A program made the translations under genes and the position numbers. Source: a virus. Taken from it: a DNA stretch of 54,102 nucleotides. The stretch's first letter is position 1. Each line of letters opens with the position of its first letter. Shown in pieces: positions 5,722 to 46,913 of this stretch. The DNA is taken from IMG/VR virus record IMGVR_UViG_3300012988_000019, positions 1 through 54,102 of that record; one strand, given 5' to 3'. The notes beneath the pieces were generated by a model, which saw only the letters and a program-made list of their open reading frames with translations, ran no database searches and was not told where the DNA came from.

Positions 5722-6075
5722 TCAGTACCAGGTTGGGGTCAGCTCGCCATCGGTGACTGCGATGACGAGGTGACTGAGTGGTTCGACCCTCTGGGCGAGG
5801 TCGACCCGAGATGGACCGACCCCGCCGCCGGGGTGAGAATGCCAGAGGGTGAGCTTCTCGAGTGTCGCCAAGGAAAGAGGCAGGTGGTTGGAGAGAAGTA
5901 CCTTCTGGATCTCAAGCCTGCTGACTGTGAACCTGTTGGTCGGGTTCTCAGCCTCGTTGGGGAGCTGAACCACCGTGCCGTCCGGTAGGATCAGCCCAGC
6001 GGCCTCGTTCGGCATCTCGGGCAGGATGATCTGCTCGAGCTGCCTCATCAGCCGGGGCGTCAGGACGTGCAGCAC
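5722..6075 (-). CDS. JAMM/MPN-type metalloprotease
   Basis: 117 residues with a complete JAMM zinc motif: Glu24 (NEAAGL), His79-x-His81 (LWHSHPGGG), Ser89 and Asp92 (PSRVD). The family cleaves isopeptide or peptide bonds; phage members normally belong to tail-tip assembly (lambda K). Here the gene sits between the terminase subunits, so a head or packaging role, or a host-directed role, is possible. Start is GTG 6075 with GGAGG five bases upstream, inside the preceding gene. No NlpC/P60 domain is attached. Confidence 0.8.
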   Translation of the reverse strand: MLHVLTPRLMRQLEQIILPEMPNEAAGLILPDGTVVQLPNEAENPTNRFTVSRLEIQKVLLSNHLPLSLATLEKLTLWHSHPGGGVGPSRVDLAQRVEPLSHLVIAVTDGELTPTWY

Positions 6076-7506: not shown

Positions 7507-8646
7507 TCAGATCGTGTGGCGGCGGCGGTAGGCGACCGCCCCGACCGTGCCGGCACCGGCGGCGAGCAGCGCACCGGCGGTCCCGAGGGCGCCGAGGTCG
7601 GACCCGGTGTGGGCGAGCTCGGTGTCGTCGTTGGCCGGCGCGGCGACCTTGGCCGGGGTGACCGGCGCGGTGACCGTGACCGGGGCGGTGACGGAGATCG
7701 GCGTCGTGATCACCGGGTTGTCGACCGGCGTCGTCGGCTCCTCGACCGGGGTCTCGGGGTCGGTCGGGTCCTCGGGGTCGACGGGCGTCTCACCCGGCTC
7801 CTCCTCGCAGACCGTCGGGGCGATGTACTCCTGTCCGGGGTCGATCATCTCCGTGATGCCCTCGCCGGACCGCTCGTTCCCCGTCGGCTCGTAGCTGGCG
7901 TCGGGGGCCTTCCAGCCGGCGTCGCGCCAGACCAGCTCGGTCGAGTCCTCGGTGCCCGGGATGTAGTCCGGGTTCGGGATGGTCGGACCGGTGTAGTCCG
8001 GGTTGGGGATCGTCTCGTCGCCCTCGGCGTCGTGGTTGACGGTCTCGGTCCAGGCCTCGCGGATGGTGACCGTCTCGTCCCAGGCCTCCTTGATCAGGGC
8101 ACCCGGGCGGGTCTGGCCGGTCTGGGTGTAGCGGTACTCCGTGGAGACCTTGCGCTTCTTGCCGTCGGTCGACTGCACCGCCGAGTGCGGGCCGGCCTCG
8201 GTGAAGTTGGCGTCGGCCCACTTGGTCGAGTTGCCCGACCAGTTCTCCCAGCCGAAGGTCTCGCCGGTGTTGACCCAGCCCAGCCACCCGGTCTGCTGCT
8301 GGATGATGCCGCGGACCTGCTTGATGTACAGGTACTCGGTGGCGTACTCGGCGTCGTGGTGGATGACCGTGGTCTCCGCCGGGTGGTTGATCGTCTCGGT
8401 CCAGGCCGGCTTGTAGTCGGGGTTCGGGATCGTCGGCGAGACCGGGTTCGGCAGCGTCTCCTCGCCCTGGGCGGGGGTGCCGGCGATGGTGTGGAGGTAC
8501 TCGTACTGCACCGCGTAGGTCGGCGCGATGTACTCCTGGCCCGGGTCGGGCACGCACTCGGTGGCCGAGGCGATGGGGGCGAAGATCAGGCCGAGGGCGA
8601 TGGCGCCCGGGGCGGCGAGGGTGTAGAGGAAGCGCGACTTGCGCAT
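7507..8646 (-). CDS. Secreted, LAHTG sortase-anchored surface protein
   Basis: 379 residues. The N-terminus is a signal peptide (MRKSRFLYTLAAPGAIALGL, cleavage likely after ASA near residue 28). The C-terminus has LAHTG at 344-348, then a hydrophobic helix and RRRH tail: a complete cell-wall sorting signal of the LAxTG type recognised by class E sortases. The middle has short repeats: PGQEYIAPT twice, IPNPDY three or more times, W(T/D)ETV/I several times, and a Pro/Thr-rich stalk (about 285-340). It is last in the 10.35-7.5 kb operon, after a lipoprotein gene. Expected on the infected host's wall, perhaps to block adsorption by other phages; this role is inference. Confidence 0.85.
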   Translation of the reverse strand: MRKSRFLYTLAAPGAIALGLIFAPIASATECVPDPGQEYIAPTYAVQYEYLHTIAGTPAQGEETLPNPVSPTIPNPDYKPAWTETINHPAETTVIHHDAEYATEYLYIKQVRGIIQQQTGWLGWVNTGETFGWENWSGNSTKWADANFTEAGPHSAVQSTDGKKRKVSTEYRYTQTGQTRPGALIKEAWDETVTIREAWTETVNHDAEGDETIPNPDYTGPTIPNPDYIPGTEDSTELVWRDAGWKAPDASYEPTGNERSGEGITEMIDPGQEYIAPTVCEEEPGETPVDPEDPTDPETPVEEPTTPVDNPVITTPISVTAPVTVTAPVTPAKVAAPANDDTELAHTGSDLGALGTAGALLAAGAGTVGAVAYRRRHTI

Positions 8647-8658
8647 GAGAGGCTCCTG

Positions 8659-8901
8659 TCAGGCCCGCTGAAGCGAGGCCGTACGGCTGATGTAGATCGG
8701 GAAGTCGTACTCCTCGACTCGAACCTCGATGGACTGTCGAGAGTTCGTGGGGGTCGCGGAGATCAGTGTCAGGGGCTCAGGCTCACCCTTGACGTTGTGG
8801 AGGAAGCGCGTCCCCTGCGCTCCGACCAGGTTAGTTGCCGGGAAGAACTTCTCCTTAGACCAGTCATTGGTCCCCGGCAGCTCGAATCGTCGTGCGGTCA
8901 T
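8659..8901 (-). CDS. Small hypothetical protein
   Basis: 80 residues, mixed alpha/beta, no signal sequence or cysteines; not recognised. The ATG at 8901 lies 7 bases after a -10 box, so the mRNA is leaderless or nearly so. It ends 12 bases before the surface-protein gene, so it is the promoter-proximal partner of that gene. Confidence 0.65.
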   Translation of the reverse strand: MTARRFELPGTNDWSKEKFFPATNLVGAQGTRFLHNVKGEPEPLTLISATPTNSRQSIEVRVEEYDFPIYISRTASLQRA

Positions 8902-8908
8902 AGCAGTA

Positions 8909-8937
8909 ATACTAGGCTACTGCGTACCGGATGTCAA
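8909..8937 (-). promoter_or_regulatory. Promoter, near-leaderless
   Basis: -35 TTGACA (8937-8932), 17-base spacer, -10 TAGTAT (8914-8909), ATG 7 bases on. The -35 box overlaps the true stop of the upstream frameshifted gene. Confidence 0.65.
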
Positions 8938-9432
8938 CGACGAATCGAGTGCCGGAGCGGGAACTTCATCCGGTTCCACACCCGGTTGGTGAGCCGCATC
9001 GCGACCCAGAGCGGAACCACCTTCTTCACCCACTTCCTCTCCTCGCTGAGGAGGTAGTAGGTCTTGCCGGCGTCGTTCGAACGCCTCGCCGCGGCGGCGG
9101 TTCTGCCAGATCATGTCGCCGACCCCGATCCAGTCCGCCGGGTCGGTCGTCAGCGGGTTGAGGTTCTCGAAGTTCAGCAGCCGCTGCAGGGTCTGCAGGC
9201 TGTACGAGGCCGACATGCCCGAGTGCCCCTGCTGGCTGAAGCGGATCACCAGGTCCATGATGTCGTACGCCATCTGGCGGTTCATCTTGTCCGAGCCGGG
9301 GTAGCCCATGCCGCTCAGCTCACGCATGGCGTGCAGCACGAGGTTGCTCTCGAAGCTGGCGTCGTAGTCGGAGTCCCGCCACTGCGGGAACTCAGCGCGG
9401 CGATCACGCAGGGGCTTGTCGCTGGTGATCAT
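8934..9432 (-). CDS. Conserved actinophage-type protein, frameshifted
   Basis: The ATG at 9432 overlaps the lipoprotein stop (TGATG). The first frame reads well to IWQNRRRGEAF (near 9079) and then turns into low-quality sequence ending at 8917. Skipping one base at 9078 opens a frame with natural composition (NDAGKTYYLLSEERKWVKKV, ending HSIRR, stop 8936-8934). The joined product of about 165 residues has the block MAYDIMDLVIRFSQQGHSGM, which I recall from other actinophage proteins of unknown function. Either a real +1 indel, a recoding site or a sequence error. No slippery heptamer was recognised. Confidence 0.6.
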
Positions 9433-9689
9433 CAGTCCTCCAGGTTGGCGCAGTGCTCGTCCCACTCGGGAACGCGCATCACGGCGTTGTAGTCACGGGT
9501 GGTGGTCGCGAAGGCGATGTCGTCGATGCACACCCGGGTGATGTTCGGGTGCTGGTCGACGTTGCCGTAGATCGTGATCTCGTCCGGCTCCTCGAACGGG
9601 ACGTTCTCGACGTCGTACTGCTGCGCGCAGCCCGCGGTCAGGGTGACCAGAGCCGCTGCTGCCAGCACGGCAGCGAGCCTCTTCTTCAT
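9432..9689 (-). CDS. Small lipoprotein
   Basis: 85 residues. A basic start (MKKRLAAVLA), a hydrophobic core and the lipobox LTAGC with Cys21 predict cleavage and lipidation, so the 64-residue mature part would sit on the outer face of the host membrane. It has two further cysteines (RVCIDD, EHCANL) that could pair. Phage-encoded lipoproteins often block DNA entry by superinfecting phages; here that role is inferred from the family habit and from the neighbouring wall-anchored protein. Confidence 0.75.
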   Translation of the reverse strand: MKKRLAAVLAAAALVTLTAGCAQQYDVENVPFEEPDEITIYGNVDQHPNITRVCIDDIAFATTTRDYNAVMRVPEWDEHCANLED

Positions 9690-44041: not shown

Positions 44042-45433
44042 CTAGCTGGTGTAGGCGTCAACGGGCTCAAGCGTTACAATGGCCCAATCACTAGTCCCTC
44101 CCCCGCCAGAAATAGTACCACTGGCGTTTCGGTTCACGGCCTGTACCCGCACCCGTACGGTAACTCCCGGATCAATCACGAGCTCAGCATCGATCAGCCG
44201 GGAAGCGAGCTGTGACGCAGATACTGTGTTGTCTCGATGCTCGTGTCGGATAGCCTCAGTACCCCCAATCGAGAGATCGGCGATCAGGGAGGGGGAGGCA
44301 TTAGCAGCCGAGTTGGTAAGCATGGCGGAGGCTCGGACCTTGAGTAGAGCCTTACTATCCGGGAAGGGGTTGGTGAAGTTGGCATCAAACATCACCGCTG
44401 CGACAGTACCAATTGCACTAACCGCAGTCATGGGGCCAGTGTAGGTTTGCATCTTGGGTGAAGCCGGGCCAGTGGCCCCCGTGTTACCGCGGGGGATCAC
44501 CAGGTTGAGCTGCTTATCGGGGGAGTCCCCGGTAATCGTGGCCTGTGCCGCAGAACCCGCTGCCCCAGTGGTAACAGTGCCAATGGAGAGTGTATCCCCA
44601 TCAGCCCCATCGACTCCCGGGTTTCCCCTGGGGATGGTCAGATCGAGAACCTTGTTCGGAGAAACACCGGTGATCGAAGCTACTGCCTCAGTACCAGGGT
44701 CGCCCGTCGTGATGGTGCCCATGGTGAGCTTGTCACCCGGGGACCCCGCATCACCCTTGTCACCCTTGGGGCCGATACTCCCATCGGCCCCCGGAGGACC
44801 CTCCAGCTCACTCGTCAGGATCAGATCGACCCAGGGCAGCTCAGGCGTATCGACATACCGCCACTGGATGGCCGTCCCTGAGTTCCTGAGCTCGACCTCC
44901 CGACCATCATCACCCATGATGATACCACCACCATCGATGATGTCCTTGATGTCCTGGTAGATCTGCTCGACCTCGGCGACACCCTCGGTACTCACCACGA
45001 CTACCGTGCCGGGATCGGGGTCGACACCCATCGCCATGGCCAGATCGATGGTCCCGTTCACCGGAACCTCGAAGACCACCGGTACCGGCTGAGCCAGCCC
45101 ACTCAGCTCGTTGAAGTTGAACCGAGCAGTGAACTGGACGTGATCGGGCTGGCCGGCAGGCTGCTCACTCGCCATCATCCAGACCCCAGGTGTGGAGCTG
45201 TTCGGCGCGTAGAGATCCCCGTTGATCACCCGGCACTCGAGGATGGAGATCACTGCCGTCCTCGGCGGGTCGGTGTTGATGAACCGCATGAGAGGAGTGT
45301 TCGGCGTGATGGTTACGGTACCAGTGAGAGGCACCTCATCCGGCACAGTGCCCGGGTCGTTGGAGTCCGCCACGAAGGAGACAAACCGACCGATCACCTT
45401 GCCATACTGGACCTGGCTAGGAACGTCAACCAT
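44042..45433 (-). CDS. Minor tail protein with collagen-like repeats (paralog B)
   Basis: 463 residues. N-terminal beta part (VPSQVQYGKVIGRFVSFVAD), helix EVEQIYQDIKDIIDGGGIIM, then Gly-X-Y segments (GPPGADGSIGPKGDKGDAGS; GNPGVDGADGD; GNTGATGPA) and a C-terminal beta domain. It resembles tail fibre or host-binding proteins. Clearly paralogous to the 45444 protein (first 250 residues). Last gene of the late operon. Confidence 0.75.
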   Translation of the reverse strand: MVDVPSQVQYGKVIGRFVSFVADSNDPGTVPDEVPLTGTVTITPNTPLMRFINTDPPRTAVISILECRVINGDLYAPNSSTPGVWMMASEQPAGQPDHVQFTARFNFNELSGLAQPVPVVFEVPVNGTIDLAMAMGVDPDPGTVVVVSTEGVAEVEQIYQDIKDIIDGGGIIMGDDGREVELRNSGTAIQWRYVDTPELPWVDLILTSELEGPPGADGSIGPKGDKGDAGSPGDKLTMGTITTGDPGTEAVASITGVSPNKVLDLTIPRGNPGVDGADGDTLSIGTVTTGAAGSAAQATITGDSPDKQLNLVIPRGNTGATGPASPKMQTYTGPMTAVSAIGTVAAVMFDANFTNPFPDSKALLKVRASAMLTNSAANASPSLIADLSIGGTEAIRHEHRDNTVSASQLASRLIDAELVIDPGVTVRVRVQAVNRNASGTISGGGGTSDWAIVTLEPVDAYTS

Positions 45434-45443
45434 GGTGAGCCTC

Positions 45444-46913
45444 CTACGGCTTCTCGACGGTCAGCAGACCGGGTCGGTTACTAGCAGAAATCCAGGTCAC
45501 CTGACCGGTACCACCGGCGCGATAAACCCAGACCCCATAAGTAACAGAGCCCTCGGGGGGAGTGTCCTTAGTACGAAGAATGACCGTAGAAGGCACTCCG
45601 GCGTAGGGCACCAGGATCACGAAGTTACCGACCTCGGGATCGGTTGTAGCAGTACCTCGACGGATGATGATGCCCAGTCGGTCATTGGCCACTGTGCACT
45701 GAAGGTGGCCAGAGAGCTCGAGCAGCAGGTCACTACCAGTAGCGGCGACCGTTACCGTCAGCTGAGACATCAGGACCTGAGTACTGTCAGTCGGGCCATA
45801 GTTCACTACCGACTGGCTCAGTCCGATCTTCCCTCGAGCCTCGAGCGCAGTAACTCGATTGGTCAGGTTCTGCTGAAGTGCAGTGACTGCGGCCTTGAAT
45901 ACCGCTGCGGTGATGGCGCTCTTGGTAGTGTCAGTACCCGTGGTGATCTGAGCCTGGGTGAGAGCCGGTAGAGCAGTACCGTCCGCACCAGCAGGACCAG
46001 TGATGGAAGAGAGAGAGACCAGGTTGCTCCACACCGGGTCACCGACATACTGCCACTGGATGTAGCCACCCGAGACGCGAAGCTGGACCTGCCTCCCGTC
46101 CGCACCAGGGTTACCATTCGACCCATCGGCACCCTTCGGGAGACCCAGGTTCAGCACCTGGTTAGGGGCCGCCCCCGTAATACTCGCCTGCGGGGTCGAG
46201 GTCGAAGTGACGCTGCCGATCGTCAGGGAGTTGGGCGGTCCGGCTTCTCCATCGTCGCCCTTATCGCCCTTGAGCCCCTGGGGGCCCTGCAGGTCGGCCA
46301 GCATGACGAGAGATGCCCAGAGAGTCGTTCCCGAGTACCGCCACTCGATAGCCGTGTCGCTGGCCCGCAGCTCGACCTCTCGACCATCAGCACCCTGGAT
46401 CATGCCGCCACCGGCGATGATGTCCTGAATCTGCTGGTAGATCTCCTGGATGTCGGCCCAGTCCTCGTGAGTCACCAGCTCGACCGTACCCGGGTCAGGC
46501 GAGACAGGCACGATTGTGGTGAGATCGACCTCGGTGTCGGGCGGAACTTCGATGATCACGGGCGACGGCTGCTGGGTCGAGGTAAGACCATCGAACTGGA
46601 AGGTGGCAGTCCACTGGATGTTGCTCGGCTGACCCTCCGGCTGCTCCGAAGCGACCAGGTTAACTCCGGGTTCGGTGTTGCCCTCTGCAGTAAGCCAGCC
46701 ATCGACCAGGGTGCAAACAATGGGCGAAATCACCGCGAGGCGTGCTGGGTCGGTAGTCGGGAACCGCATGATGCGGACGTTGGGCGTGAGCGTGATGGTG
46801 CCGCCCAGAGGCAGCTCCTCGGGCAGGTTACCCGGGTCGTCACTGTCAGCCACCACCAGGACGAACCGCCCGACTACCCGACCGTAGCGGACCTCACTGG
46901 GAACATCGGCCAT
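45444..46913 (-). CDS. Minor tail protein with collagen-like repeats (paralog A)
   Basis: 489 residues. Same plan as its neighbour: VPSEVRYGRVVGRFVLVVAD, helix DIQEIYQQIQDIIAGGGMIQ, Gly-X-Y (GPQGLKGDKGDDGEAGP; GADGSNGNPGADG), and a different C-terminal beta domain. Only 10 bases separate the two. Tandem duplication with divergent ends suggests host-range diversification. Confidence 0.75.
   Translation of the reverse strand: MADVPSEVRYGRVVGRFVLVVADSDDPGNLPEELPLGGTITLTPNVRIMRFPTTDPARLAVISPIVCTLVDGWLTAEGNTEPGVNLVASEQPEGQPSNIQWTATFQFDGLTSTQQPSPVIIEVPPDTEVDLTTIVPVSPDPGTVELVTHEDWADIQEIYQQIQDIIAGGGMIQGADGREVELRASDTAIEWRYSGTTLWASLVMLADLQGPQGLKGDKGDDGEAGPPNSLTIGSVTSTSTPQASITGAAPNQVLNLGLPKGADGSNGNPGADGRQVQLRVSGGYIQWQYVGDPVWSNLVSLSSITGPAGADGTALPALTQAQITTGTDTTKSAITAAVFKAAVTALQQNLTNRVTALEARGKIGLSQSVVNYGPTDSTQVLMSQLTVTVAATGSDLLLELSGHLQCTVANDRLGIIIRRGTATTDPEVGNFVILVPYAGVPSTVILRTKDTPPEGSVTYGVWVYRAGGTGQVTWISASNRPGLLTVEKP

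Follow-up and report, generated by a model that had tools for sequence, protein, structure and literature searches.

A putative sortase-anchored, mirror-repeat surface protein encoded by a virus of soil bacteria and its relatives in Microbacterium phages

Phage-borne genes for sortase-anchored wall proteins are known from SasX (SesI), an LPXTG protein of a staphylococcal phiSPbeta-like prophage that has been linked to colonisation by the lysogen (PMC6066798). The specificity of class E sortases for LAXTG is established, and the chaplins ChpA-C of Streptomyces are class E sortase substrates with this motif (PMC5148588). Exclusion of further phages at the cell surface is represented by Llp of T5, a superinfection-exclusion lipoprotein that acts from the periplasm on FhuA, with which Cor of T1-like phages has also been named (PMC9586334).

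The sequence analysed here is the IMG/VR record IMGVR_UViG_3300012988_000019, a virus of soil bacteria, which was used in its full length of 54,102 bases (positions 1 to 54,102) and is referred to below as the window. The record has DNA in common with the Microbacterium phages Triscuit and Huwbert and the Curtobacterium phage Shrew. Its genes include those for portal, terminase, scaffold, primase/helicase, DNA polymerase, exonuclease, endolysin and tail proteins, which bears out the assignment of the gene under study to a phage by an earlier note on this DNA. No integrase was found among the window ORFs tested, and there was hence no sign of lysogeny. The gene and its parts were delimited as follows.

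7507..8646, minus strand: LAHTG surface-protein gene, ORF of 379 aa with ATG start, preceded by AGGAG (Shine-Dalgarno-like)
8563..8646, minus strand: signal peptide, residues 1-28 (ending in APIASA, before TE), by inspection; the N termini of relatives are similar except those of Pumpernickel and SM23 as annotated
8554..8556, minus strand: Cys31, base of the predicted clasp, directly after the signal peptide; one of exactly two cysteines, and an invariant column in the full-length alignment A1
8371..8547, minus strand: predicted N-side stalk, residues 34-92 (DPGQEYIAPT, NP..NPDY, AWTETINH), the segments of which recur on the C side in mirrored order
8059..8370, minus strand: putative tip domain, residues 93-196 (TEYLYIKQVRG..GW..GET..), by its position between the mirrored repeats
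7810..8058, minus strand: predicted C-side stalk, residues 197-279 (AWTETVNH, NPDY..NPDY, DPGQEYIAPT), a mirrored copy of the N side
7807..7809, minus strand: Cys280, second cysteine of the predicted clasp, directly before the Pro-rich linker, from the cysteine count
7618..7806, minus strand: Pro/Glu/Thr-rich linker, residues 281-343, by sequence and by the equivalent position in relatives
7603..7617, minus strand: LAHTG sortase motif, residues 344-348, by sequence, composite rule and shuffles
7510..7602, minus strand: hydrophobic helix and RRRHTI tail, residues 349-379, by sequence; helix at 353-378 in the AF2 model

As a phage-encoded and predicted sortase-anchored wall protein, the window protein is of a kind already known from SasX, with which it shares a phage-borne gene; what is new here is the breadth of the family and its mirror-repeat, Cys-clasped build. 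SasX belongs to a lysogenic prophage and carries LPXTG, whereas the window protein is encoded by an apparently non-integrating phage and has a class E signal, and its mirror-repeat ectodomain is unrelated to that of SasX. Its LAXTG sorting signal has the same layout as those of ChpA-C, but these are host morphogenesis proteins, while the window protein is phage-encoded and has a different ectodomain. To Llp and Cor the likeness would be one of purpose, the stopping of adsorption to an already infected cell, which for the window protein is a proposal. The mechanism is not alike, as Llp and Cor are small lipoproteins of Gram-negative phages and the window protein is a predicted wall-linked stalk in a Gram-positive host. 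The 379-residue window protein has no lipobox before Cys31, and a lipoprotein anchor was rejected on this ground.

The N terminus of the window protein, MRKSRFLYTLAAPGAIALGLIFAPIASA followed by TE, was read by inspection as a Sec signal peptide. At the C-terminal end LAHTG is followed by an uncharged hydrophobic stretch up to residue 373 and then by RRRHTI, and the linker before the motif presumably spans the wall. A composite sorting-signal rule was applied using L[AP]xT[GA] at 18-55 residues from the end, a 15-residue uncharged hydrophobic stretch and at least two K/R thereafter, and among 286 window ORFs (>=60 aa) the LAHTG gene alone satisfied it. None of 50,000 whole-protein shuffles passed the rule, which ruled out a chance motif and sustained the claim of the earlier note that the ORF at 7507-8646 has a complete sorting signal, with its signal peptide, LAHTG motif, hydrophobic helix and RRR tail. 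The rule was passed by 0.26% of shuffles when the last 60 residues alone were shuffled, and the motif by itself fell within the last 60 residues in 1.2% of shuffles of the window protein. In the profile searches the window protein reached none of the curated NCBIfam cut-offs and matched no Pfam or PHROG model; the best curated match was to NF058582 (NCBIfam LAVTG domain) with 15.8 bits at a cut-off of 27.

Relatives of the window protein were reached stepwise. The tblastn search with the window protein against the phage collection gave no match at 1e-3, and the path led via a viral contig (L002) to P0005 and P0004. The E-value between the window protein and a viral-contig member was 1e-8, and pairwise comparisons with members gave 8e-9 and 1e-4; these values are lenient owing to the repeats. 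Using L002 as query, 101 Microbacterium phage records were retrieved at E <= 1, and 134 were retrieved at E <= 1e-3 using AluminumJesus gp68 as tblastn query. The relatives that were read individually span the genera Squashvirus, Gillianvirus, Quhwahvirus, Mementomorivirus, Rogerhendrixvirus, Krampusvirus and Neferthenavirus as well as unclassified phages and viral contigs, with sizes of 40-186 kb.

Twenty-five relatives were read one by one (18 first, then Rasputia, Marcie, Fregley, BirdInFrench, Ixel and the contigs L072 and L076), and in 24 of them the C terminus consisted of LA[QETA]TG, a helix and a basic tail. The exception was SM23 (L010, 3600-3730), the deposited frame of which stops soon after LATTGGG; since another frame carries the helix and RRR, this deposit is probably frameshifted. 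The diversity of the full-length alignment was too high for pattern scans. The L, A, T and G of the motif and one R did not vary across 12 aligned relatives that represent several phage genera, in agreement with the earlier reading of the signal as class E type (LAXTG; PMC5148588). Among the named relatives, AluminumJesus gp68, Kozie gp78, Quhwah gp85, Hendrix gp122, Pumpernickel gp243 and Ixel gp42 have the anchor as in the window protein. These Microbacterium phage proteins form one family with the window protein, and most of them also share NPDY-type repeats and the clasp cysteines; they differ from each other in repeat number (3/3 to 8/8) and in the type of tip.

The relatives are labelled in their records as hypothetical or as membrane protein, those of Quhwah and Paschalis as glycosyltransferase, and sortase anchoring was absent from the annotations in all records inspected. 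The two proteins labelled glycosyltransferase, Quhwah gp85 (L021, 2857-4182) and Paschalis gp81, are LAQTG-type surface proteins, and in Quhwah-like phages genes annotated as glycosyltransferase and UDP-glucose dehydrogenase come after them, in Quhwah at a distance of a few genes. No account of these proteins, or of sortase signals in Microbacterium or Curtobacterium phages, was found in the open-licence literature.

The label membrane protein, given to relatives by several annotators, would suit a plain membrane-anchored surface protein, held by its C-terminal helix and with an LAxTG that sortase leaves unused. For a membrane anchor alone, however, the invariant L-A-x-T-G is superfluous, and relatives match curated sortase-anchor models, such as AluminumJesus gp68 with a score of 18.6 over the TIGR01167 cut-off of 15.9; we regard a plain membrane anchor as improbable. 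Sortase anchoring of the window protein is predicted with high confidence, and it is very likely that the enzyme is a class E sortase. A Pfam PF04203 search detected no sortase in the window record, so a phage-encoded sortase was rejected and the host, as had been proposed before, would supply the enzyme. Of 297 Actinomycetes genomes sampled, 228 had a class E sortase; within one genus, 54 of 59 genomes had one that scored above the cut-off.

Bacterial genomes were also searched for the protein itself. The phage-family profile matched 56 of 297 Actinomycetes genomes, mostly via its last ~95 positions, and the loci fetched from these matches mostly encoded bacterial proteins with LAxTG (or LPxTG), a helix and a basic tail. 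An ectodomain-only profile matched 1 of 395 genomes of the class (Actinomycetes) and 2 of 300 in the family of that genome. These ectodomain homologues are surface proteins that end in LALTG, a helix and a basic tail and have a cysteine at either end of the module, and the tip of one of them (L068) is closely similar to the tips of the metagenomic phages L072 and L076. No relative of P0004 was found in genome contigs or plasmids, and the LAQTG codon pattern yielded one locus in genome contigs, which was used solely as the centre for genome searches. Bacterial proteins with the same clasped module, and with a tip so near to those of phages, could point to captured host surface proteins that are kept as cargo helpful to the host or neutral. 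Against such cargo stand the handful of matching genomes compared with more than 100 phages, and the lack of an integrase among the tested ORFs and hence of any sign of lysogeny; we consider it quite improbable.

The repeat-rich stalk described in the earlier note was right but understated, since the repeats are mirror-symmetric. Three kinds of segment are mirrored in the window protein (DPGQEYIAPT at 34 and 269, NPDY at 75 and at 215 and 225, AWTET at 81 and 198), and Cys31 and Cys280, its sole cysteines, close one end each; the window protein thus has the clasp cysteines and the repeats mirrored around a tip that mark the family. In six representatives with many repeats, NPxY repeats flank a ~100-aa tip in equal numbers (5/5, 6/6, 8/8, 3/3, 5/5 and 6/6), and the spacing outwards from the tip in Fregley is 35, 50, 25, 25 and 25 on one side and 33, 50, 25, 25 and 25 on the other. 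The summed spacing difference over these six was 14 in mirrored order versus 142 in same-direction order, and the mirrored statistic was reached by 2 of 100,000 shuffles. Exactly two cysteines, the first right behind the signal peptide and the second right ahead of the linker, were counted in the window protein and in AluminumJesus, Pepe25, Hendrix, ValentiniPuff and Fregley.

The two AF2 models, one of the window protein and one of the Squash ectodomain, were weak (mean pLDDT 46 and 43). In the window protein, strands 82-88 and 199-205 took mirror positions, with blocks of pLDDT 72-83. Strands were likewise placed in mirror positions in the Squash ectodomain (12-18/372-378, 92-96/294-298 and 143-149/241-247). 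Given the low AF2 confidence, the hairpin rests on the symmetry of the sequence, which makes probable a disulfide-clasped, antiparallel two-stranded stalk that holds the tip at its end most distant from the wall.

This stalk-and-tip layout resembles that of wall-anchored adhesins in general, and the few homologues in bacteria are surface proteins of the LALTG type, both of which would fit an adhesin whose tip binds cells, surfaces, polysaccharide or virions, with progeny being released near new hosts or held for them. No known binding domain was found, however, and the fold search with the weak model returned nothing at E <= 0.001, so that an adhesin appears rather unlikely. A decoration or fibre protein of the virion that was misread as a surface protein was considered as well. 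In the window the gene precedes the terminase, and weak profile matches linked 2 of the 12 relatives to phrog_25388 (virion structural protein) and two to PF25616 PhiKZ_gp35 (best E ~1e-5), matches that are probably compositional. The window protein itself matched no structural family in PHROG or Pfam; a signal peptide, C-terminal helix and RRR are ill-suited to cytoplasmic assembly, and in most relatives the gene is away from the structural genes. A virion component is therefore very improbable.

The same anchor was also found on other outer parts. Of the annotated phages, Shrew and Triscuit are nearest to the window phage, and both have LAxTG genes. Shrew gp28 (L008, 10423-11268) carries LAYTG and a signal peptide; Triscuit gp17 (L003, 26339-26632) has 97 aa with LATTG, a helix and a basic tail and, as annotated, is without a signal peptide, which would point to an uncommon way of insertion or to an upstream portion that was overlooked. 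LAYTG or LAFTG proteins were further found in the Curtobacterium phages Yappy, Kithara and Sunfish, and LAYTG proteins in two viral contigs (L055, L057). The ectodomain of the Curtobacterium phage proteins (Shrew gp28, L058-L060) is a different one and is conserved among them. Since four Curtobacterium phages and viral contigs place LAYTG or LAFTG on other ectodomains, the anchor is the part that is kept, and since LAxTG genes recur with different outer parts, phages of Microbacteriaceae repeatedly bear class E-type signals.

A constant anchor with ectodomains that differ between Microbacterium and Curtobacterium phages would also be expected of a protein that is produced in large amounts and serves as a sortase decoy, occupying the host class E sortase, or in wall homeostasis, propping the wall. 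In such a role it would leave host LAXTG proteins (possible receptors) undisplayed or delay lysis, and its anchor would count more than its ectodomain. Long, strictly mirrored and Cys-closed ectodomains are nevertheless kept across unrelated phages and would be needless for a pure decoy; this explanation is judged unlikely.

The genomic context of the window gene was examined next to that of its relatives. Upstream of the gene the following features were found.

8659..8901, minus strand: 80-aa ORF directly upstream of the LAHTG gene, with no Pfam or PHROG match
8909..8937, minus strand: promoter-like TTGACA-17-TAGTAT, 7 bases upstream of the start codon (ATG) of the 80-aa ORF
8917..9465, minus strand: Tad3-like (Type I Thoeris inhibitor) gene, two genes upstream, Pfam PF25185 with E 2.5e-28, over the cut-off

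The 80-aa ORF is probably co-transcribed with the LAHTG gene, and the Tad3-like gene suggests an anti-defence neighbourhood. Exact promoter-like TTGACA-N17-TANNNT sites, the one ahead of the 80-aa ORF included, occur 10 times in the window (8909 to 42950) versus 0.04 expected, with a second hexamer that starts with TAG in nine of the ten, and they form a coherent set of strong promoters in the non-structural part of the window. In Shrew a site of this type stands 35 bases ahead of the LAYTG gene; apart from L076, the other relatives showed no clear sigma-70 promoter upstream of the gene. The genes of the relatives adjoin primase/helicase, DnaE, helicase, ParB or sigma-like genes, and in most relatives the gene is situated among replication or regulatory genes, often flanked by intergenic spaces of its own. 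The promoter sites, these surroundings and the separate intergenic spaces favour expression during takeover over expression with the virion genes. No terminator was detected between the LAHTG gene and the downstream same-strand terminase and portal genes, and late expression is therefore possible in the window virus.

Other genes of the window were recorded in the same survey. At 9432-9689 (minus strand) an ORF of 85 aa, whose signal is of the lipoprotein type (LVTLTAGC), overlaps the start of the Tad3-like ORF and is a possible second phage surface protein. A stand-alone Prok-JAB protein (PF14464) is encoded at 5722-6075 (minus strand) just upstream of the terminase. Two neighbouring tail/fibre genes at 44042-46913 (minus strand) have similar profile matches, one with a weak match to collagen repeats, and are possibly a duplicated fibre pair.

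In the mechanism that we propose, the host-type promoter near the anti-defence gene would drive synthesis of the window protein during infection, and the host Sec machinery would export it. The host class E sortase would then cut LAHTG between T and G and link the protein to peptidoglycan. The chain would fold back on itself, with N-side repeats pairing with C-side repeats in a two-stranded antiparallel stalk, the base of which would be locked by a Cys31-Cys280 disulfide and which would hold the ~100-residue tip off the wall. The protein may thereby cover or alter the wall of the infected cell, and later of its debris, such that further virions would not be lost to unproductive adsorption. That an anchored hairpin stalk is active at the surface of the infected cell, whatever its exact use, seems reasonably probable. 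The surface-remodelling or receptor-masking role suggested in the earlier note draws on gene context and on analogy and is a reasonable guess; the adsorption-blocking (shield) role is put forward tentatively, at somewhat below even odds. We assign a probability of about one in three to the reading as a whole, in which many unrelated Microbacteriaceae phages have adopted a new class of wall-anchored, clasped mirror-repeat stalks, with which lytic phages would block adsorption in a sortase-dependent way.

The mirror-repeat hairpin would be an unusual design of surface stalk, common to phages and a few bacteria. Phages are widely isolated on Microbacterium foliorum, and more than 100 sequenced Microbacterium phages carry a gene that has been labelled 'hypothetical' or 'membrane protein' and that likely encodes a sortase substrate. 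Reading it in this way makes covalent remodelling of Gram-positive walls by lytic phages concretely testable.
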